Translations under genes and position numbers: made by a program
Shown here: in pieces, positions 6,001-30,453 of the stretch
How positions within the stretch are numbered: position 1 is the first letter of the stretch
Layout: every line of letters starts with the position of its first letter
Notes under the pieces: generated by a model
Databases searched by the model: none
What the model saw: the letters and a program-made list of their open reading frames with translations, nothing else
Told to the model about the DNA's origin: nothing
From: Aquitalea aquatica
GTDB taxonomy: Bacteria > Pseudomonadota > Gammaproteobacteria > Burkholderiales > Chromobacteriaceae
DNA: 64,000 bases
NCBI RefSeq assembly: GCF_013911085.1
Contig: NZ_JACERN010000022.1
Span: 1 to 64,000, forward strand
Direction of reading: 5' to 3'

Positions 6001-8467
6001 TGTGTACGGCAATGTCTCCAATCCGGGCAGCGGCAGCTATGCGCTGCCGACTACACCGCCGGTCAGCATTGTTGCCGACGCCAACCACGACGGCTATCTG
6101 AATGCGGCGGAAATTACCGCAGCGGGCAGCACCATCAGTTCGACGGTGCAGCTTGATCCGGCGCTGATCAGTGCTGGTGGTAGTGCCAGCATCGTGGTGG
6201 TGGATGCCGGTACCACGACAACGCTGCAAGTCGGCTCCGGCGGTACGGTAACGGGGGCTGCCAATAATGTTTCTGGTAGCTACAACGCCACGACCGGCCT
6301 GCTCACCCTGACCATGAATGCTCCGGGTGATGGCAAGGCGGTCAATGTGACCGCCACGCAGACCGACCACTACGGCATCACTTCATCGAATGGTGCTGCC
6401 GCAGCCACCGAAGACATCACCGGCCCGTCGGCACCGACCGTGGTGATTGCCACCGATGTCAACAACGATGGCTACATCAACAAGGCGGAGCAAGGCAGTG
6501 CCACCACCGATACGGTAAATATCGGCCTGCCGAGCAATGCCAAGGCTGGCGATACGCTGAATGTCACCATCAATGGCGTGGTGCAGAGCGGCCATGTACT
6601 GACGGCGGCTGAAATTACCGCAGGCAAAGTGGTGCTGACCCCGGCCGCACCGGCTGATGGCAGCACGCTGACGGTGACTGCTTCGGTCAGCGACCCGGCT
6701 GGCAATACCTCGGCCAGTGCCAGCGACAGTGCCAAGATTGATCTGACGGCACCGACCATTGCCATTGCCACCACGCTGTCCGGCGATGATGTAATCAATG
6801 CCGCCGAACACAATCAGTCGCTGCTGGTCAGCGGTAGTACGGTAGGTGTGGAAGATGGTCAGAAGGTGGATGTGGTGCTGAACAATATTCACTACAGCGC
6901 GACGGTAAGCGGGAATAGCTGGTCGGTAACCGTACCGGCTACCGATGTGGTCAAGCTGGCAGATGGCAGCGTCACGGTAACCGCGAATGTCAGCGATGCC
7001 GCCGGCAATGCCGCCACACCGGCTACCCATGGCCTGACCGTGGATACCAGCTTGCCGACCATCAACCTGGTATCGAACATCACGACGACCCAGTTGTTCA
7101 ATACCACCTGGGAAGCCACCAACCAGACAACCTCCTCGACAACTGCCGAGGGCTGGACGCTGGTGACCAGCAACGACGTTGCCCCTGGCGGTATCAATGG
7201 TTTCGAAATCTGGACCTCCAGCGACACCATGACCACGGCCAGCGGCAGCACCATTACCCCGACTTCGTCTACCGGTACTGGTAATACCCACTGGATTGAG
7301 CTGAACAACTCGACGACCAACATTATCCAGACGCTGGGCATTACCCGTACCGTTGCCACGGTGGCTGGGGCGGAATACCAGTTGTCCATGGATTTTGCCG
7401 GTCGGCCGGGTTACTCCACCGATATCAACAAGATTGGTATCTATGTGGATGGCAAGCTGGTGGCTGAATATTCGGCGACATCGGGCAGTACGCTGGATTG
7501 GCGCAATATTTCCTTCGACTTTACCGGCACCGGTGGCAACCAGGTCATTACCATTCTGACCGATACCCCGGCCAGTGCGGTTGACTCCAGTGGCCGTGGT
7601 GCCATGGTGGACAATATCGTGCTGACCCAGGGCGGTTTCCAGGCCAGCGATGCGGCAATCACCACCATTGCCCTGTCCAGCCTGATGACGGCTTCGCATC
7701 CGGTAGCGGTCAGCACGGAAACCCTGACGTTGAATATCAGCGGCCTGACCTCTGCCGAAGGAACGCCGTCACTGGTACTGCATGGCACAACCTACACGCC
7801 GGATGCTTCGGGCAACCTGACGGTAACCGGTCTGAGCCTGAGCGATCTGCAAAGCGGTTCCTTGCAGTTGTCCGGTAGCTACCATGGACAGGTCAGCTTC
7901 AATGCCACCGTGACCGCGATTGAAAGCAATGGCAATACGGCGACTTCGTCGACCGTGCCGGTGTCTTTCCTGGTGGGAGCAGGTAATGAGGTGCATGGCA
8001 CTGCAGGTACCGACTATCTGTACGCCGGCACCGGCGCCACCTTGCTGCATGGAGGGGCGGGCAACGACACCATGACCAGTGGCAGCACCGGTGTGGATAC
8101 CTTCAAGTGGGTGCTAGGTGACCAGGGCACGGTGGCAACACCGGCGGTGGATACCATCATCAACTTCAAGACCGCAGCCGTGGCCAGTGGTGGTGACAAG
8201 CTGGATCTGCGTGATTTGCTGGTAGGTGAAAGCCATAGCGGTACCGATGTCGGCAACCTCAGCAATTACCTGCACTTCACCACCAGTACCAGCAATGGGG
8301 TAACCAGCACGGTGATTCATGTCAGCGAAACCGGTAATCTGGCATCGCATGAGACCCAGCAGATTGTGCTGCAGAATGTCGATCTGACCCATAGCGGCAC
8401 CACGCTGTTGTCGGATACCCAGATCCTGCAAAACCTGCTGGGGAATGGCAAACTGATCACTGACTAA
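2..8467 (+). CDS. Giant repetitive type I-secreted adhesin (LapA/BapA-like), 5' partial
   Basis: Surface adhesin; the frame is open at the left edge, so the N-terminus (retention module and LapG cleavage site in this family) is outside the window. About 2,820 residues are visible. Seen in order: 12 type-A Ig-like units of about 109 residues (11 between nt 5 and 4220, one near 6420-6745), 3 type-B units (near 1315-1615, 3257-3556, 6750-7045), 3 type-C units (4220-5150), a PA14-like segment (about 5165-5720), a DUF642-like carbohydrate-binding-like segment (about 7080-7640), one RTX motif GGAGNDTM (near 8055), and a C-terminal VCA0849-type secretion domain ending at 8467. Each A unit contains DANNDGFINKAE or a variant, matching a 12-residue EF-hand loop. 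Neighbouring lapD, lapG and a tolC-like gene support a Lap-type biofilm adhesin. The family and C-terminal signal are clear; the ligand is unknown. Confidence 0.93.
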   Translation, partial: AVDTAAPGTPTVVIATDANNDGFINKAEQGSATTDTVNIGLPADAKAGDTLNVTINGTAQPGHVLTAAEITAGQVVLTPTAPAEGGTLTVAATITDVAGNTSASASDSAVRDTTAPSAPTVVIATDANNDGFINKAEQGSATTDTVNIGLPADAKAGDTLNVTINGTAQPGHVLTAAEITAGQVVLTPAAPAEGGTLTVAATITDVAGNTSASASDSAVRDTTAPSAPTVVIATDANNDGYINKAEQGSATTDTVNIGLPADAKAGDTLNVTLNGVAQPGHVLTAAEITAGQVVLTPTAPAEGGTLTVAATITDPAGNTSAQGSDSAKLDTTAPSAPTVVIATDANNDGFINKAEQGSATTDTVNIGLPSDAKAGDTLNVTLNGVAQPGHVLTAAEITAGQVVLTPAAPAEGGTLTVAATITDVAGNTSAQGSDSAVRDTSAPTIVIATTLAGDNIVNAAEHNQPLTISGSTTGVEDGQKVDVVLNGTHYSATVTNNSWTLDVPATDVAKLANGQSYTITADVSDKAGNPAPEASHGLAVDTAAPGTPTVVIATDANNDGFINKAEQGSATTDTVNIGLPSDAKAGDTLNVTLNGVAQPGHVLTAAEITAGQVVLTPTAPAEGGTLTVAATITDVAGNTSASASDSAVRDTTAPSAPTVVIATDANNDGYINKAEQGSATTDTVNIGLPADAKAGDTLNVTLNGVAQPGHVLTAAEITAGQVVLTPAAPAEGGTLTVAATITDVAGNTSAQGSDSAKLDTTAPSAPTVVIATDANNDGFINKAEQGSATTDTVNIGLPSDAKAGDTLNVTLNGVAQPGHVLTAAEITAGQVVLTPAAPAEGGTLTVAATITDVAGNTSAQGSDSAVRDTTAPSAPTVVIATDANNDGFINKAEQGSATTDTVNIGLPADAKAGDTLNVTINGVAQAGHVLTAAEITAGQVVLTPTAPVEGGTLTVAATITDVAGNTSASASDSAVRDTTAPSAPTVVIATDANNDGFINKAEQGSATTDTVNIGLPSDAKAGDTLNVTINGTAQPGHVLTAAEITAGQVVITPTAPVEGGTLTVAATITDVAGNTSAQGSDSAVRDTSAPTIVIATTLAGDNIVNAAEHNQPLTISGSTTGVEDGQKVDVVLNGTHYSATVTNNSWTLDVPATDVAKLANGQSYTITADVSDKAGNPAPEASHGLAVDTAAPGTPTVVIATDANNDGFINKAEQGSATTDTVNIGLPSDAKAGDTLNVTLNGVAQPGHVLTAAEISAGQVVLTPTAPAEGGTLTVAATITDVAGNTSAQGSDSAKLDTTAPSAPTVVIATDANNDGYINKAEQGSATTDTVNIGLPADAKAGDTLNVTINGVAQAGHVLTAAEITAGQVVLTPSAPAEGGTLTVAATITDVAGNTSAQGSDSAKLDTTASIAISSDGSGSDHVYNKTESAAAVVSGTTTGVDAGQTVTVTFTDSANHVVTATATVAANGSWTVPASSLSGLLDGPVTVKASVSDVAGNPASASVSEVKDTTATIAISSDGSGSDGVFNKTESAAAVVSGTTTGVEAGQTVTVTFTDSANHVVTTTATVAANGSWTVPASSLSGLVDGAVTVKATVSDVAGNTATASNTDSKDTVATIAISSDGSGSDHVYNSTESSAVVVSGSTGSVEAGQTVTVTFTDSQGHTASSTATVDSNGNWTANPANLSGLTDGSVSVSASVSDKAGNTANASAAEGKTATLPDAPVVSFLSNGLTSQYYNVNDSKISSPPSGSTSLSVVQADLQTLKAAATFIATNLNYGDVGGVWHGTADFTNNLGATGNLSTFLGSNATNLQLNSNYTSTTQSIIQMSGAFSAAAGTYYLNVNADDGYQIMIDGQIVSSMTGIQSQNAAPASVTLAATAGNLHTIQILYWDQGGAAVFQAALSTQQLGNTTTTGVQTISLTTNNTLTATVTLDSTDQTDLSKGGAVTISSNTGTNVTLHLSGSNLVDSSGTVYTYQNGVIYLPVVEPSTGQTLTVTAMVSDVYGNVSNPGSGSYALPTTPPVSIVADANHDGYLNAAEITAAGSTISSTVQLDPALISAGGSASIVVVDAGTTTTLQVGSGGTVTGAANNVSGSYNATTGLLTLTMNAPGDGKAVNVTATQTDHYGITSSNGAAAATEDITGPSAPTVVIATDVNNDGYINKAEQGSATTDTVNIGLPSNAKAGDTLNVTINGVVQSGHVLTAAEITAGKVVLTPAAPADGSTLTVTASVSDPAGNTSASASDSAKIDLTAPTIAIATTLSGDDVINAAEHNQSLLVSGSTVGVEDGQKVDVVLNNIHYSATVSGNSWSVTVPATDVVKLADGSVTVTANVSDAAGNAATPATHGLTVDTSLPTINLVSNITTTQLFNTTWEATNQTTSSTTAEGWTLVTSNDVAPGGINGFEIWTSSDTMTTASGSTITPTSSTGTGNTHWIELNNSTTNIIQTLGITRTVATVAGAEYQLSMDFAGRPGYSTDINKIGIYVDGKLVAEYSATSGSTLDWRNISFDFTGTGGNQVITILTDTPASAVDSSGRGAMVDNIVLTQGGFQASDAAITTIALSSLMTASHPVAVSTETLTLNISGLTSAEGTPSLVLHGTTYTPDASGNLTVTGLSLSDLQSGSLQLSGSYHGQVSFNATVTAIESNGNTATSSTVPVSFLVGAGNEVHGTAGTDYLYAGTGATLLHGGAGNDTMTSGSTGVDTFKWVLGDQGTVATPAVDTIINFKTAAVASGGDKLDLRDLLVGESHSGTDVGNLSNYLHFTTSTSNGVTSTVIHVSETGNLASHETQQIVLQNVDLTHSGTTLLSDTQILQNLLGNGKLITD
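5..4220 (+). repeat. Tandem Ig-like repeat array (about 327-bp units, near-identical DNA)
   Basis: Eleven type-A units of about 327 bp follow each other, interrupted by two type-B units. Identity holds at the DNA level as well as the protein level; the stretch starting ggctgtggataccgccgcac recurs at about 1, 1612 and 3553. This gives a higher-order pattern: 4 A units plus B, then 5 A units plus B, then 2 A units. Such arrays can change length by recombination and are often misassembled. Confidence 0.9.
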
Positions 8468-8616: not shown

Positions 8617-10545
8617 TCAGCTGATGGCCGGCCCGGTCAGGCAGTGCACGCCCATCTCGATAAGGGCTGTTGCGTCGGCCGTATCGTTGACGCCCTTGGC
8701 CTCCAGCCATACGCCCATCAGCGAGGCCATGCGCAGCAAACCACGCAACAAGGCAGCACGGCCTTCATCGCTGTGCATGCCCTGGGTGAGCGTGTTGTCC
8801 AGCACCAGGTAGCTGATGCTGGCTTCATGTGTTCGCGCCACCAGCGCCATATTGTGGCCCTGAATTTCTACCGCCAGTTGATGGCCTGCCGGGCGAATGG
8901 CGCGGCTGAAGGCGATGAAGTGCTCCCAATGCTCGTCCAGCCCGGTTTCGTGAAACTCGAAATTGATCTGGCGCTGCGGGTGCTGCTGCAGCAAGTGCAG
9001 GATGGTGGGCAGGAATTCGGGATGATGCAGCGAGGCCGGTGACATATTCACCGCCAGTACCCCCTGTGGCCCCTGCTGCAATGCCAGCGTCAGGGTATTG
9101 ATATCCAGCCGGTGGATCAGCCCCAGCCGGGCGGCCTGGGATACCAGTCGCAGCGCACTCATGGCCGGAACCAGTCCGCTGGCTGGGCGGAACAGCATGC
9201 CCTCGTGCCACAGTACCTGCTTGTCCGGGTCGCATACCGGATACCAGCGCAGCTGCAGCGAATTGTCCTGGCAGACGGTTTCCAATAGCTGTTTCCAGTC
9301 GAAATCGCTGGTTTGCTGTGGATTGCCGGCCCCGTCATCCAGCTTCCAGCTGTTGAGCGGCTGGGCTTCGGCCACGCTCAGGCTGTTGCTGGCACGAGTC
9401 AGGACTTCGCCCAGCTTGTCGCCGCTCTGGAAGTGGGTGATACCAATATGGCCAAGGCCGGGCTGGTCGGACAGCTCCATCGTCCAGTACACCGGCCATA
9501 GCAGGCAGAGCTCATCGGCCAGCTTGCAGGCTTGCTCGACACCCAGTTCGGGACAGAACAGGGCAAAGTCGGCACCGCGCAGGCGGGTGGCCATCCAGCC
9601 ACGGTTGTGCTGGCACTGGGTGGACAGATCGTCTGCCACCCGTTTGAGCAGGGCATCGGTACGGCGGCCACCCAGGCGCTGGTTGAGCTCGGCCAGACCG
9701 GCGATGCGAATCAGCAGCAGATGTCCGTTGGCCGGGTCGGCTTGTGGGTCGAGCAGGCTGGAGAAGCGCTGCTCGAAGGCTTCGCGGTTGGGCAGGCCGG
9801 TGCTGCTGTCGGTCAGCGCGGCACGCCGCAGCTGATCTACCTCGTCGCGCAGGCCAAGCAGGTAGTTTTGCAGTCGCTCTACCATGGTGTTCATTGCCGT
9901 GGCGACTTCGGCCAGTTCGGGGATGCCGGGAATGGGAATACGCATGAAGCGCTGTTCGCTGATGGCATGGGCCTGTTCGACCACCGCATGCAGTTGTCTG
10001 CGCAGGCTGCGAATATCGAAAAAGCCAAGCAGGCCGGCCACCAGGCCAATGACGACCAGCCAGAACACGGTTTGCAGCGCCCCCAGCCAGAGCGAGTTGT
10101 AGGCATAGCCCAGGTGGGCCACCACCACGATGCGGCCGGCCTGCAGCCAGCCATTGCTGACCTGGGCCTGGCCGCTTTGCGGCCTGAGCGGCAGCAGGCG
10201 GTGAAACCAGGTGGGCGTGTCTTCCAAACCGTTGCTATTGCGTAGGCGGATGGCGGCATCGGCCGGTACGCCTTCCCAGCGGACCTCGGCGAAATGCCCT
10301 TGTTCGAAGGCGGCGCTGAGCAGGGTTTGCGCCATGACCGGATCAGCCTTGTACTGGGTGACCATCAGTGCCAGCGAGTTGGCGGTATCGGCGCTTTGGG
10401 CGCTCAGTTGCTGCTCCAGGTAATTGCGGGCATTCAGCAGATTGGCAATCAGCGCGCCGCCAATAGACAGGGTGACCAGCAGCAGCAGCAGCAGCCACAG
10501 GCGCTGCACCAGAGAAAGTTTGCGTGTAATCACGGGCATGCTCAA
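8617..10545 (-). CDS. lapD: c-di-GMP receptor LapD (degenerate GGDEF-EAL)
   Basis: Inner-membrane receptor that, in the known Lap systems, binds c-di-GMP inside the cell and sequesters the protease LapG in the periplasm, keeping the adhesin on the surface. The 642 residues show TM1 (about 10-33), a LapD/MoxY-type periplasmic domain with the late GW motif (near 137), TM2 (about 152-176), HAMP (about 177-230), a GGDEF domain and an EAL domain. Both catalytic signatures are degenerate: RGADF replaces RGGDEF and EGML replaces EALL. This fits a receptor rather than an enzyme. The start overlaps the lapG stop by 4 bp, indicating translational coupling. Confidence 0.93.
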   Translation of the reverse strand: MSMPVITRKLSLVQRLWLLLLLLVTLSIGGALIANLLNARNYLEQQLSAQSADTANSLALMVTQYKADPVMAQTLLSAAFEQGHFAEVRWEGVPADAAIRLRNSNGLEDTPTWFHRLLPLRPQSGQAQVSNGWLQAGRIVVVAHLGYAYNSLWLGALQTVFWLVVIGLVAGLLGFFDIRSLRRQLHAVVEQAHAISEQRFMRIPIPGIPELAEVATAMNTMVERLQNYLLGLRDEVDQLRRAALTDSSTGLPNREAFEQRFSSLLDPQADPANGHLLLIRIAGLAELNQRLGGRRTDALLKRVADDLSTQCQHNRGWMATRLRGADFALFCPELGVEQACKLADELCLLWPVYWTMELSDQPGLGHIGITHFQSGDKLGEVLTRASNSLSVAEAQPLNSWKLDDGAGNPQQTSDFDWKQLLETVCQDNSLQLRWYPVCDPDKQVLWHEGMLFRPASGLVPAMSALRLVSQAARLGLIHRLDINTLTLALQQGPQGVLAVNMSPASLHHPEFLPTILHLLQQHPQRQINFEFHETGLDEHWEHFIAFSRAIRPAGHQLAVEIQGHNMALVARTHEASISYLVLDNTLTQGMHSDEGRAALLRGLLRMASLMGVWLEAKGVNDTADATALIEMGVHCLTGPAIS

Positions 10546-26708: not shown

Positions 26709-27453
26709 GGCAATCCCTCCAAGGGTGGTGGCTGAAAAATGAATTCATCATATCCATGATGCCGCTGAACGCAAGAGTCATGAACAAAAACCACCCAGAC
26801 GGGCAAGCTGGTGACAGCGCCGGCCAGCTGCGCTGGTGGGAAGATGCGGACAAGCGTCAGGCGGGGATGTGTGCTGGATGGCAACTGCGCTGTGCCTCAA
26901 TACCCGCACGCCCGGAGTAGACCGGCGGCAACGGGGTAGAGCGACTGGTTCACACCGGATTGGACTTGCCGGATCGCACAGGACAATAAAAACCCGCAGA
27001 GCATGGTGCTGTGCGGGGTTCTGGGCTTATTAGGCGGGGTCTCTATCGAAGTGTGGCTGGAAAGCCAATACAGGTTGTGATTTTTAGTTTGTGGAAACTT
27101 GATCTGTACACAAATCTATACACAGCTTGTAGGTGCCGTGAGCTACAGGATGGGGATAATGGTAATCGGTTCAGCCATGTCCGTAGCTCTTCGATAGCGA
27201 CTCAGTTCTATTGGCGAGCGGCAACATTCGATTCAAATCAGATGTTTGGGCAACATCCACTTATAGTTGCTTTTCTGCAAATGAGGCCAGACGCTAGCAT
27301 GGGGGACACTGTATCCGTATCAAGTGTATAGCTGACAACGCTGCACCTATTCACAGCTCAAAATCCACAATTTCGGTAACTCGCTATTTTTCATCGATAG
27401 CTATTGAAAATTTATAATGGGAATTGCCATATATAGAAAAGAAAGAAGAATCA
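26709..27453. other. Gap between the M24 gene and the AT-rich island cassette
   Basis: No gene is supported in about 745 bp. The left part is GC-rich like the core genome. After about 27050 the composition falls to AT-rich, marking the probable left edge of the accessory island. An imperfect minus-strand terminator lies at 26988-27020. The sequence contains a short repeated tacaca motif near 27110-27125. A plus-strand frame at 27011-27331 has no coding signature. Confidence 0.5.
26988..27020 (-). terminator. Imperfect terminator-like hairpin on the minus strand
   Basis: aacccgcagagca (26991-27003) pairs with tgctgtgcggggtt (27007-27020), with one mismatch and one bulge. On the minus strand it runs into T residues (A at 26988-26992). 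No gene lies close upstream on that strand, so it may belong to an ancestral transcript cut by the island insertion. Confidence 0.6.
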
Positions 27454-27876
27454 TTATTGTTTATTTCTTATTATTAATAGAGCTGCAAATCCATCTTTGA
27501 AGTGAAAGAAACTTGCGATTAGGAAAAGAAATATTTGAGAAAAAGCTAGGCTAAGCGAGGGTTTTGCAATCATTCCAAAATATACAGCTAGAGATGCTAC
27601 AATTAATAAAAATCTTTTGGCGGTATACCAACCGAAATTTTGCTCGACTATCATATTTTTAGAAGCTACTGCGGCTCGTGATAATTTTGACGCACTTTGG
27701 CCAAATATTAAGCAGGATGCGAGTGACCAGTCAGTACTGAGGATTACATCCCGCCACTCTCCCATGTATAGCTTAATTGCAATTAGAAGCAAAAAAGGAA
27801 TTGCGATATATAAATAGTCAGTTTTTAATTCGGTGAATATAACTGATTTCTCTCTATTGATTTCCACCGAATTCAT
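27454..27876 (-). CDS. Multi-pass membrane protein of unknown function (island cassette gene 2)
   Basis: The 140 residues (ATG 27876; a GTG four codons upstream is an alternative) contain about four hydrophobic segments: DYLYIAIPFLLLIAIKLYM (about 20-38), DWSLASCLIFG (about 49-59), FLLIVASLAVYFGMI (about 89-103) and LAFSQIFLFLIASFF (about 110-124). The start lies 23 bp inside the end of the upstream gene, so the two are likely translated together. Base composition is AT-rich compared with the core genome, with codons such as AAA, TTA and ATT frequent. No family is recognised. The pairing with a soluble partner resembles small accessory or defence cassettes, which is inference only. Confidence 0.65.
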   Translation of the reverse strand: MNSVEINREKSVIFTELKTDYLYIAIPFLLLIAIKLYMGEWRDVILSTDWSLASCLIFGQSASKLSRAAVASKNMIVEQNFGWYTAKRFLLIVASLAVYFGMIAKPSLSLAFSQIFLFLIASFFHFKDGFAALLIIRNKQ

Positions 27877-28717
27877 ACTGGTATCCACTCTGGTTGCGAA
27901 TTATTTGAATTACATCAATTATTTTTGCATTTCTTATTGTTGGATTTCCTCGTCCTTTGGGAGGGGTGTAAATGTCATATGCAACGCGTGCCTTTATAAC
28001 ATCTTTGGGGCCAATAGGCTGAATGAGACCATTTTGATATCTACTCAGCCAATCTTTGTGTGTAATGGTAGCATGTATTCTGCGATTCATCTCAATGCTT
28101 TTAAAACACCACAAAGCATTTCCCTCATTAACTGCCATAACGGCATAGAAGCTACCCTCTACATCATGATGCTCGATATCACCTTGAAACATTTCAGCCG
28201 GATTTCCAGTAAAGCGCCAATCTGTGTCCAAGTGATAAATATTCGATCTCTCATCCTTCGAATGAAAGCTTACTTTTTCTCCTTTGTTTAGCTTCTCATT
28301 TGCTTGAGAGAACTCCCTTAGTACAAAGGCTAATTTGGTTCGGTCAATCATAGGTGAAGCTATTTCTCCTGATATCCTCTTGGCTATATCGGCTTCCAAT
28401 TCCGCGCCCAAACTCTCAACATCTTCTTCTGTGCTAGTTTGCCCTTTTAATTTTGCCATTGTTCTATTTCCAGCTGCGTAGAATATTTCTTCTAGTCCCT
28501 TGTCTATCAAGCCAGGTAAGGCTGATAGTTTGCTAAGAATAGAGCCTTCTTTGATATCGTCAAGCTGAAATTCAAAGTCTGCTTTAATTCCAACTGAGCT
28601 GATTAATAGCTGACTAAAGTCTTGGTATGCCTCAATGTATTGAGCCATGGCCTCAAAAACTGCGGCTGGCTTTTTGCGGTTATTTTCATATTCTATTTTT
28701 ATAGATAATTCAGACAT
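27854..28717 (-). CDS. Soluble protein of unknown function (island cassette gene 1)
   Basis: The 287 residues have no signal peptide or membrane segment. The N-terminal third (MSELSIKIEYENNRKKPAAV ... DDIKEGSILSKL) looks like a compact alpha/beta domain with a helical pair. The C-terminal half is beta-rich and charged (KVSFHSKDERSN, GSFYAVMAVNEGNALWCF). It overlaps the downstream membrane protein gene by 23 bp. The AT-rich composition marks it as transferred. No catalytic motif is obvious and no function is assigned; a role as the cytosolic sensor or effector of a two-gene accessory system is speculation. Confidence 0.72.
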   Translation of the reverse strand: MSELSIKIEYENNRKKPAAVFEAMAQYIEAYQDFSQLLISSVGIKADFEFQLDDIKEGSILSKLSALPGLIDKGLEEIFYAAGNRTMAKLKGQTSTEEDVESLGAELEADIAKRISGEIASPMIDRTKLAFVLREFSQANEKLNKGEKVSFHSKDERSNIYHLDTDWRFTGNPAEMFQGDIEHHDVEGSFYAVMAVNEGNALWCFKSIEMNRRIHATITHKDWLSRYQNGLIQPIGPKDVIKARVAYDIYTPPKGRGNPTIRNAKIIDVIQIIRNQSGYQYEFGGNQ

Positions 28718-28764
28718 TTTATAGCCTATCGTGCTAATAAAGATAAAATAAATTTAAATGGCTA

Positions 28765-28887
28765 ATGCCAGATGAGGAACGAATTGCTTCAGATTTTCTG
28801 GATGCTTGGGCTGTCTCCATCAGGCAGATATGCTCATCTTTAGATCGCACCAAGCATGAATATTCCACTTCAACTCTTAATTGTTAG
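28765..28887 (+). other. Small open frame, possible gene remnant
   Basis: A 40-codon frame (MPDEERIASDFLDAWAVSIR start, ending TSTLNC) lies in the AT-rich gap between the cassette and the 200-residue gene. Its composition is protein-like, but it has no ribosome binding site. It could be the start of a truncated island gene or chance. The rest of the gap 28718-28965 holds nothing recognisable. Confidence 0.2.
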
Positions 28888-28965
28888 GAGTTTCATTTTC
28901 ACAGTTTTACTCATCACTGAAATTAATGGTTTCGCTCTGCTTGTATCATTTCTATCTTAATTAAT

Positions 28966-29568
28966 TTAGTTTAGCCAATAACTAAAACCAGCATTGATTT
29001 TTAATAAAGAAGGTGCTGGGTACTGATTTAAAAGATCCAGCGCAACATCCTCACCAAATTGACTGTGAGCTTGGTCTGGCGAGGAATTCAGATAGTGGGC
29101 GGTGTATTCAGCAAGGCCAGGGTGATGCAGGAATCCCAGCGGTTTCTTGTGATCGATCCCATCCCAAACAGAGCGGGCGTAGTGCATAGCAATGACGCGT
29201 TGAGCAGATTGGATACGTTGAGCCAAGGACGCGCTGACGTTTTGCAGTTGCGACCTGGCGGCGGTCTTCTCGGCTTCGCGCTCGTGGTAGGTCGATAGGG
29301 TAATGCCAGGATGCAGCATTTCGAATAGCATCCGTTGCAGTGATAGGCCCTTGACCAAGGTTTGGTCGGCCTGTCGCTTCGGGTCGTAGTCGATGCCGGT
29401 CAGTGGATCCGGAGTCTCACCGCTTAAGGTCAAATCCTTGGCTTTGCGCTTGAGGGTGCTGACCAACAGTTCTTCTAGTTTCTCGTCGCTCAAGTTGTTG
29501 GGCCATTCTTCACCAATCAGCGCTTTTGCGCGGTTCAGTTGCTCGCGGGTGTAGCGTAGCTTTGCCAT
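28966..29568 (-). CDS. Hypothetical island protein, 200 residues
   Basis: ATG 29568 follows AAGGACG at good spacing. The protein is soluble, helical and charged. The N-terminal part is Lys/Glu/Leu-rich (TREQLNRAKALIGEEWPNNL); a central segment (about 95-125) is coiled-coil-like (EREAEKTAARSQLQNVSASL). The C-terminal region has several His/Trp residues (HYARSVWDGIDHKKPLGFLH). No family is recognised. Composition is closer to the core genome than that of the neighbouring cassette. It lies 100 bp from the iteron-like repeats, which fits a mobile-element accessory gene. Confidence 0.65.
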   Translation of the reverse strand: MAKLRYTREQLNRAKALIGEEWPNNLSDEKLEELLVSTLKRKAKDLTLSGETPDPLTGIDYDPKRQADQTLVKGLSLQRMLFEMLHPGITLSTYHEREAEKTAARSQLQNVSASLAQRIQSAQRVIAMHYARSVWDGIDHKKPLGFLHHPGLAEYTAHYLNSSPDQAHSQFGEDVALDLLNQYPAPSLLKINAGFSYWLN

Positions 29569-29667
29569 GCAACGTCCTTGTATCTAGGCTGGCACAATTA
29601 GGCTTAAATGATATGCCGATTGATTTTAAACAGCGCTTCTTTTTTCTCACGTATGTAGCAAAAACCG

Positions 29668-29901
29668 CCGCCAATGCCGCCAACACCGCCAACTCGTGTC
29701 TAAGTTATTGATCTGTAATGATTAAGTTGTTGGCGGTTGCGCCAATTTTGCCGCCAACAGCCACCCTGAAACCGCCAACTGGGCGGGAGGGGGTGGATTT
29801 CAGACGTGACTACCGCCAACACCGCCAACTCACCGCCAACAAATAAACCTATATAAATCAATAGAGTTACATAAGAATTGGCGGGTTGGCGGTGTTGGCG
29901 G
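29668..29901. repeat. Iteron-like CCGCCAAC cluster in both orientations
   Basis: Exact CCGCCAAC copies on the plus strand begin at 29677, 29686, 29751, 29772, 29813, 29822 and 29833. Inverted copies (GTTGGCGG) begin at 29729, 29885 and 29894, with another at 30211. A one-base variant (CCGCCAAT) is at 29668. Pairs are spaced 9 bp apart (29677/29686, 29813/29822, 29885/29894). TGTTGGCGG (29728-29736) and CCGCCAACA (29751-29759) form a palindrome around an AT-containing centre. The cluster lies in a 356-bp stretch without genes, next to a primase-like remnant, and resembles a replication or regulatory origin of a mobile element. Confidence 0.8.
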
Positions 29902-29924
29902 CAGTTTTTTCCTTACGTGAGAAT

Positions 29925-30155
29925 TTACCCCCCTTCTTCCTCCTCGCCCGGCATGACTTGGTACAGGTGCATGCGATACACCTGGCCAATGCTTTTTCCG
30001 CCGTTCACCGTCCAGGCATCGCGGCCTTTGGGGCGGTCCAGCATTTCCGCCTTGTGCAGCACTTCGCAGGCTCTGCGCGCCTTGTATCCGGCAATCACTT
30101 CCGGCTTGAAGGGACCAGGAGACACCATGAAGATGGGCTTTTGCCGGGCGGAACG
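29925..30155 (-). pseudogene. C-terminal remnant of a primase/helicase-like (DUF927-type) protein
   Basis: An open minus-strand frame of 77 codons (including the stop) reads RQKPIFMVSPGPFKPEVIAG, then KARRACEVLHKAEMLDRPKG, and ends in a normal stop after GEEEEGG. The pattern (Pro-Glu-Val start, two helices, then a beta-rich GxxGQVYRMHL end) resembles the C-terminal tail of DUF927/primase-helicase proteins of phage-like islands. It is closed upstream by a TGA at 30156, and no primase core follows, so it appears truncated. A small intact gene from ATG 30128 (67 residues) is the alternative. The family match is from memory of the pattern only. Confidence 0.5.
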
Positions 30156-30308
30156 TCAGTGAGAAATGGACGTGGAGATGGTAGATAGCACACAGCACGC
30201 ATAGGGGGATGTTGGCGGTATGCAGGCCGTGATGACGGCAGGTGTTCGGGCGCAACTAACATGATCTGCGCTCGGTGTGCTGGGGAGGCTTGCGAAAACG
30301 ACAGGCAA

Positions 30309-30330
30309 CAAAAAAGCGCCTTGCGGCGCT
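30309..30330 (-). terminator. Terminator downstream of tRNA-Leu
   Basis: agcgcc (30315-30320) and ggcgct (30325-30330) form a 6-bp stem with a 4-nt loop. On the minus strand it is followed by a run of T (A at 30309-30315). It lies 39 bp after the tRNA 3' end. Confidence 0.85.
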
Positions 30331-30368
30331 GTTTTGATTCTTGCGGAAATCCTTATCTGGTAAGGACT

Positions 30369-30453
30369 TGGTGCCCGGGGTCGGACTCGAACCGACACAC
30401 CTTGCGGCGGGGGATTTTGAATCCCCTGCGTCTACCGATTTCGCCACCCGGGC
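30369..30453 (-). tRNA. tRNA-Leu (anticodon CAA)
   Basis: The minus strand folds into a class II tRNA of 85 nt with encoded CCA. The acceptor stem GCCCGGG (5' end at 30453) pairs with CCCGGGC, followed by A and CCA ending at 30369. The anticodon loop TTCAAAA between AGGGGA and TCCCC gives CAA. The long variable arm and the T loop GTTCGAGTC are present. Its strand matches rsmI, but it has its own downstream terminator. Confidence 0.97.

Follow-up and report, generated by a model that had tools for sequence, protein, structure and literature searches.

Organization of the locus

The window (the whole 64,000-nucleotide stretch of Aquitalea aquatica DNA that was analysed) carries an array of short repeats, here called iterons, next to a predicted helicase remnant. 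Both belong to a mini-island of ~3.3 kb that adjoins a tRNA-Leu gene and consists of three cargo ORFs, the iteron block, the helicase stub and a right end of ~200 bp. The features are the following:

27035-27070, plus strand: left end of the mini-island (GGGTCTCTATCGAAGTGTGGCTGGAAAGCC...), recognized by its likeness to two island ends of the related genome G002
27454-27888, minus strand: cargo ORF, 144 aa, no Pfam (E ≤ 1), PADLOC or NCBIfam match, best PHROG match at E = 0.025
27854-28717, minus strand: cargo ORF, 287 aa, phage family of unknown function (phrog_27740, E = 8.8e-95)
28966-29568, minus strand: cargo ORF, 200 aa, the next gene past the array, weak match to phrog_264 (major head protein, E = 5.6e-4)
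29644-29662, plus strand: left outer inverted repeat (TTCTCACGTA...), 79% over 19 nt against 29905-29923
29668-29693, plus strand: iteron triplet (29668, CCGCCAAT; 29677; 29686)
29694-29728, no strand: AT-rich segment 1, 71% AT by composition
29729-29779, both strands: inner iterons 29729 (minus), 29751 (plus) and 29772 (plus)
29813-29840, plus strand: iteron triplet (29813, 29822, 29833)
29841-29877, no strand: AT-rich segment 2, 81% AT by composition
29877-29901, minus strand: iteron triplet (29877, 29885, 29894)
29905-29923, minus strand: right outer inverted repeat, pairing imperfectly with 29644-29662
29925-30155, minus strand: predicted C-terminal stub of a DUF927 helicase, 76 codons (29928-30155) plus stop codon (29925-29927)
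30211-30218, minus strand: isolated 11th copy of CCGCCAAC, beyond the stub and outside the array
30282-30368, no strand: right end of the mini-island, one copy of a sequence present twice in G002
30369-30453, minus strand: tRNA-Leu (CAA), adjoining the island (ARAGORN; Rfam tRNA)

The 8-mer CCGCCAAC occurred 14 times in the window, compared with a mean of 4.42 and a largest count of 12 in 100 shuffles. Eleven exact copies lie at 29677-30218, seven on the plus strand (29677, 29686, 29751, 29772, 29813, 29822 and 29833) and four on the minus strand (29729, 29885, 29894 and 30211). A preliminary description of this DNA had listed these 11 copies, together with pairs at 9-bp spacing and an inverted (palindromic) arrangement, and all of this was recovered. 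The 7-mer CCGCCAA has further sites at 29668 and 29878, and the core of the array comprises 12 CCGCCAA within 234 bp (29668-29901); elsewhere in the window no 240 bp contained more than three. When 29601-30300 was shuffled 2000 times (mononucleotide shuffles), at most two copies were obtained, so the excess over shuffled sequence that the preliminary description had proposed to compute is real. Its worry that clusters of the motif might be common elsewhere in the genome was not borne out. The tandem pair CCGCCAACNCCGCCAAC occurs three times in the 4.46-Mb genome, all three inside the array, and neither a second cluster nor tandem pairs of the iteron were found elsewhere in these 4.46 Mb.

Read on the plus strand, the layout is three forward iterons, 35 bp of AT-rich DNA, one reverse and two forward iterons, three forward iterons, 37 bp of AT-rich DNA and three reverse iterons. 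Both AT-rich segments (29694-29728 and 29841-29877) thus sit between iteron sets. The whole block is weakly palindromic, with 50% identity to its own reverse complement as opposed to at most 39% in shuffles. In relatives, the ACGTA core of the left outer inverted repeat is kept, and CTATATAAATCA in AT-rich segment 2 is conserved in an alignment of seven arrays. The 11 copies had been described as a single array, which holds for the dense block and not for the copy at 30211: it lies alone beyond the stub, fits no array position and in our judgment does not count toward the origin. In G002, a one-base variant of this copy is present at the aligned place. The miRNA-type Rfam matches over the array were discarded, their scores being far below the gathering thresholds.

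A helicase stub in an island lacking an integrase ORF

The 76-aa frame next to the array was found by a C-terminal profile, which was built from the last 130 residues of DUF927 proteins with the stub itself excluded (E = 7.7e-7 among 35,082 frames). It shares 62% identity over 69 aa with residues 523-590 of an intact DUF927 protein (locus L356, described below) and 76% identity with a corresponding stub in G002. Judged by sequence, the frame is the C terminus of a DUF927 replicative helicase, the rest of the gene being gone. A non-replication protein, named in the preliminary description as the finding that would speak against its reading, was rejected on the basis of the profile match and the identity to the L356 protein. 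The stub gave no Pfam match at E ≤ 1 and no PHROG match; the DUF927 domain (PF06048) itself is absent from it, and its homology to DUF927 proteins runs through the C terminus. Searches for relatives of the stub by tblastn among phages and plasmids returned none of use, none was confirmed in the genome_contigs and viral_contigs collections, the stub profile had zero matches among solved structures (PDB), and the predicted fold was poor (pLDDT 52.5). No match to PF06048 or DUF927 was obtained in the genome to which the window belongs. The helicase C terminus had been said to overlap the right end of the array; in fact, the stop codon of the stub begins 23 bp past the last iteron base (29901).

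The left end of the mini-island is 84% identical over 76 bp to positions 6801-6876 of the G002 stretch L011 and 91% identical over 33 bp to positions 10092-10124. These are the left ends of two G002 islands at the same tRNA. Within a set of 10 genomes of the genus, TCTATCGAAGTGTGGC occurred once in the genome of the window and once in G002; the exact crossover point at the left end is a putative one. As regards the right end, 30282-30332 matches L011:9333-9383 and 30302-30382 matches L011:10019-10098, the two L011 copies being direct repeats. Among the cargo ORFs, the 287-aa product additionally matched NCBIfam NF053583 (E = 9.6e-5), with 21.9 bits against a cut-off of 60; the 200-aa product had no Pfam, PADLOC or NCBIfam match. 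PADLOC detected no defence genes among the three. No integrase or helicase ORF was present among the ORFs listed for 27035-30368, and the nearest relative of the G002 integrase in the genome of the window is 37% identical. Cis-mobilizable elements (CIMEs) consist of island ends and cargo, have no integrase and are moved in trans. The mini-island is like them in having ends and cargo without an integrase, but it also keeps a probable replication origin.

Intact relatives in the sister genus

Of 61 genomes of the family that were searched at the DNA level, seven contained the block with a strong score, namely the genome of the window, G002 and five genomes from a second genus; the search also returned two self-inverted matches and three weak ones, 35-67 bp long. 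The preliminary description had suggested looking for the array beside full DUF927 genes, and four genomes of the sister genus (G021, G012, G015 and G026; loci L356, L358, L359 and L360) have exactly this, the block following directly on the 3' side of a complete DUF927 frame (590-610 aa).

In L356, the order toward tRNA-Leu(CAA) is block, DUF927 gene, Toprim-type primase gene, an ORF over a C4 antisense RNA, a transposase-like ORF, integrase gene and tRNA. The Toprim-type primase is 90% identical to the Pfam-confirmed primase of L358. Pfam matches in L358 comprised DUF927, a DUF7146/Toprim_3 primase, DUF1484, an Ogr_Delta zinc finger of the Delta type (PF04606), a P2-family capsid protein, AlpA (PF05930), an integrase (PF00589, partial because it is cut by the end of the stretch) and an IS transposase. 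C4 antisense RNA (Rfam RF01695) scored above the gathering threshold in all four loci. Neither psu nor sid was matched among the 10 ORFs of L358 that were scanned, a set leaving out the smaller ORFs. Primase and DUF927 protein are encoded by separate genes in L358, with no alpha-type fused primase-helicase. Of the primase/helicase-like remnant of the preliminary description, the helicase part therefore stands, and the primase part does not, primase being a separate gene in the parent element. By sequence, the L358 DUF927 protein is similar to SaPI Rep (8tch, E = 1.2e-10) and to SCCmec Cch (5dgk, E = 1.2e-4). Going by their predicted gene set, the parent elements are P4/PICI-like satellites of P2-type phages.

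An intact DUF927/primase/integrase element also occurs beside a tmRNA in G006, a member of the same genus as the window (L012:8790-10934); its helicase gene is followed by a TGTTCCCA-type array.

Concerted iteron change, orphaned blocks and branch-wise decay

The seven blocks align site to site. Position 2 of the iteron is C in the window and T in the five sister-genus sequences (the four intact loci and L357) at 11 of the 11 sites present in all; one iteron site of L358 bears a further change. All iterons have changed together while the layout stayed constant, as would be expected of sites that are read by one protein. This difference between the window and the sister genus amounts to a natural experiment on the joint change of an initiator and its sites.

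G002 and the window have the block, the stub, the break point and the island ends in common (81% identity over 587 bp), and no cargo protein of one matched the other at E ≤ 1e-3. G002 retains the C4 block, and the window has no C4. When changes were polarised with the sister genus, the window branch had changed at 0 of 87 iteron columns, 2 of 168 spacer columns and 13 of 200 stub columns, whereas the G002 branch had changed at 9 of 87, 13 of 168 and 13 of 200, respectively. The array and the stub thus differed on the window branch (p = 0.0008) and not on the G002 branch (p = 0.48). This suggests, for one of the two branches only, a longer-lasting constraint on the array than on the stub; the counts are small, and the same picture would result from recombination with an intact origin.

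A second orphan was found in G016 of the sister genus (L357, 9649-10593). It lies beside tRNA-Leu, retains 12 CTGCCAAC sites as in the intact relatives, and has a 101-codon frame with a DUF927 C terminus; a different DUF927 gene is located elsewhere in that genome. The L357 stub starts from DUF927 residue 501 and that of the window near residue 523, which points to separate deletions. Orphaned blocks such as those of the window and G016 could show whether selection keeps an origin after loss of the helicase.

Further islands at this tRNA were observed in G002 and G007. G002 carries tandem islands at tRNA-Leu (L011:6801-15933). The first is a mini-island that holds C4 RNA, a decayed origin and a cargo ORF whose sequence reads as endonuclease-like; the second carries an integrase that is 71% identical to the L356 integrase. 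G007 (L361:8452-11093) has a reduced island at the same tRNA-Leu site, with the ends and C4 kept and no origin block.

Comparison with known origins and satellites

Excerpts of the work on Gram-negative PICIs (Fillol-Salom 2018, PMC6092414) place the GN-PICI origin immediately 3' of rep, describe an AT-rich region between two sets of iterons and report that rep plus ori maintained a plasmid in E. coli. GN-PICI and SaPI origins as described there resemble the family of the window in that repeats lie immediately 3' of the initiator/helicase gene, iteron sets flank AT-rich DNA, iterons vary by element, and the parent is a satellite with AlpA and integrase. The position is that of a GN-PICI/SaPI-type origin, with 23 bp from iteron to stub stop in the window and the block directly 3' in the four intact loci. 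Unlike the origins in these excerpts, the helicase here is a DUF927 protein with a separate Toprim primase gene, and the block numbers about twelve sites, contains two AT-rich segments and is bounded by an outer inverted repeat; the initiator of the window is gone. With only 76 codons left and no PF06048 in the genome, the intact initiator of a functional PICI-type replicon is missing.

According to the consulted part of PMC7581432, the isolated C-terminal domain of SCCmec Cch2 binds repeats downstream of its gene. SCCmec Cch/Cch2 thus has a related helicase with repeats just downstream of the gene, as found here, and Cch2 differs in its three AAGTG iterons, its polymerase-type rather than Toprim primase and its Gram-positive cassette. 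L358 reached 46.6 bits against NCBIfam NF047345 (Cch1; cut-off 700) and is a distant relative rather than a member. A DUF927 protein is cited as a true helicase in an excerpt of PMC5862659. In the portion of PMC8628076 used, P4-like satellites share AlpA, an Ogr/Delta zinc finger and an integrase with L358, and C4 antisense RNA with L356, L358, L359 and L360; the separate Toprim primase and DUF927 genes and the P2-type capsid gene of L358 set the latter apart. The Pseudomonas satellite phiAH14b (KU708005), which was shown to be packaged with helper phage proteins (PMC4936722, in excerpt), has an integrase, AlpA, a Toprim primase and then a DUF927 relative, like the parent elements. In its sequence (L316), we found 11 GGGGAACA-type sites after the DUF927 relative. 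It differs in host and iteron and in being intact, and the excerpted text of PMC4936722 makes no mention of repeats. Initiator-binding repeats downstream of a helicase gene are published for SaPI/PICI and SCCmec, and the kind of origin is therefore known; our searches of the open-access literature turned up no publication about the origins of such DUF927 satellites for this bacterial group.

A probable orphaned replication origin and alternative explanations

Taken together, the array, the helicase stub, the corresponding array at the same location in intact relatives and the lack of a DUF927 match in the genome indicate that 29644-29923 is very probably the replication origin of a P4/PICI-like satellite beside tRNA-Leu(CAA), now orphaned. 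In the intact element, the C-terminal domain of the DUF927 AAA+ helicase would attach the enzyme to the iterons; the enzyme would melt the AT-rich stretches that separate the iteron sets and load itself, with primers coming from the neighbouring Toprim primase. Binding, melting and firing are proposed by analogy with the work on SaPI Rep, SCCmec Cch/Cch2 and GN-PICIs. A deletion that is also present in a sister species took away the helicase except for its last ~70 residues; with helicase, primase and integrase all missing, the origin is left an orphan. The preliminary description had likewise supposed an origin, left in a mobile island after most of the replication gene was lost; the comparison with relatives supports this view, origin firing being presumed from the analogy. 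An unannotated array is thereby placed in a known mechanism.

That the array arose by chance or from base composition, or that it is an intergenic repeat dispersed through the genome, was rejected as next to impossible. The window is GC-rich, and three TTGGCGG at 9-bp spacing also occur in coding repeats of unrelated organisms, but the shuffles, the lack of a second genomic cluster and the orthologous conservation in seven aligned loci contradict this. That the array serves the satellite as a copy-control, partition or transcription-control site and not as the start of replication is very unlikely. Iteron arrays can have any of these roles, and phage P4 has a cis site besides ori, which is named in passing in the excerpts of PMC6092414; the position 3' of the helicase gene, the AT-rich segments and the inverted outer iterons nevertheless fit the GN-PICI and SaPI origins as published there.

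The orphan origin might still work in trans, either as part of an island of cis parts and cargo that is replicated and moved by an incoming related satellite or with its iterons acting as a decoy; this is possible but unlikely. The unchanged iterons on the window branch favour it, as do the ends, origin and stub common to the window and G002 around cargo without a match, the second orphan in G016, whose genome has a different DUF927 gene, and the second G002 island at the same tRNA, with its integrase related to that of L356. Yet the G002 array has decayed like its stub, the genome of the window offers no DUF927 match and only a distant relative of the G002 integrase, the counts are small, recombination with an intact origin would leave the same pattern, and cargo at tRNA sites turns over by ordinary recombination as well. 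Carried further, the mini-island could be a second-order parasite or counter-parasite, which has shed helicase, primase and integrase, keeps a selected origin and ends and, together with exchangeable cargo, is replicated and moved by an incoming satellite of its own family, or starves that satellite of initiator through the orphan iterons. The conserved array on the window branch, the second orphan and the shell shared with G002 around different cargo would fit this proposal, which we regard as distinctly improbable.

Arrays after other DUF927 genes

Arrays were sought within 600 bp after the stop codon of other DUF927 genes and were defined as at least six copies of one 8-mer with at most one mismatch, of which at least four stood in 8-11-bp tandem. 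Three samples were used. The order sample (300 genomes) comprised 45 of 46 DUF927 stretches (G269, below the cut-off, was left out) plus L012, and 45 of these 46 were analysable. For the class sample, 25 of 31 rows were taken, leaving out G151 (already covered), three broken pieces of G546, the second piece of G392 and G703; 24 were analysable. L274 and L343 could not be analysed. Six records, small and mostly environmental or cryptic, were picked by hand from the matching records, 15 of phages and 61 of plasmids. As controls, up to four stretches per locus were drawn from the same loci, and those that may touch a real array were kept in.

An array followed 48 of the 75 analysable DUF927 genes, compared with 9 of 263 other ORF ends and 1 of 750 shuffles; L298/L299 and some other loci are close relatives, and the 75 loci are therefore not all independent. 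By sample, the counts were 30 of 45 (order), 13 of 24 (class) and 5 of 6 (plasmid and phage records). The remaining 27 loci had no array by the same measure; one of them is a plasmid, pTAO100 (L313), which also has repM. The rule that iterons lie just 3' of the helicase gene is hereby extended to DUF927 genes of one bacterial class. Most of the DUF927 genes examined can be expected to lack an annotated origin.

The iterons vary between elements (e.g. GGGGACA, GTAACAA, GGTGAAAC and GTGCCAC). By eye, two layouts recur. The short layout consists of two direct copies, an inverted copy and three more direct copies; the long layout is like that of the window. When the 12 sites of the window were compared with 26 arrays of at least nine copies, 7-8 sites matched in nine loci. 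In six of these, which have unrelated iterons, the shift measured from the stop codon was -2 to +6 bp, and the single-locus match was reached by the following numbers of 200 block permutations: L300, 2; L325, 3; L301, 9; L272, 10; L302, 32; L267, 62. The match summed over the 26 arrays was reached by 13 of 200. Given these outcomes, the likeness in layout is suggestive only.

Iteron similarity was weakly correlated with C-terminal identity (Mantel r = 0.125, 18 of 500 permutations) and with identity of the ATPase part (r = 0.150, 3 of 500), the C terminus thus doing no better. In L298 and L299, both from the genome G257, the DUF927 genes are the same in 30 of 32 60-nt blocks and differ at the last dozen residues, and their arrays are unrelated (ATAACAACC versus GTGGGTATG). 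This pair argues against a strict lock between iteron and helicase.

A Photobacterium plasmid (L317, NZ_AP024859.1) has a 13-site GGTTACAC-type array after its DUF927 gene. It is annotated with a protelomerase and is therefore perhaps linear with closed ends. A scan for triple repeats gave 98 stretches in viral_contigs and at least 120 in genome_contigs; 11 loci were inspected, L034 closely, and the inspected matches were mostly coding repeats. In L034, a viral contig (2068-4087), a gene for an AAA_25 (RepA-like) helicase is followed from 6 nt past its stop codon by a TTGGCGG array in two orientations, with motif and place as in the window and a helicase of another family.
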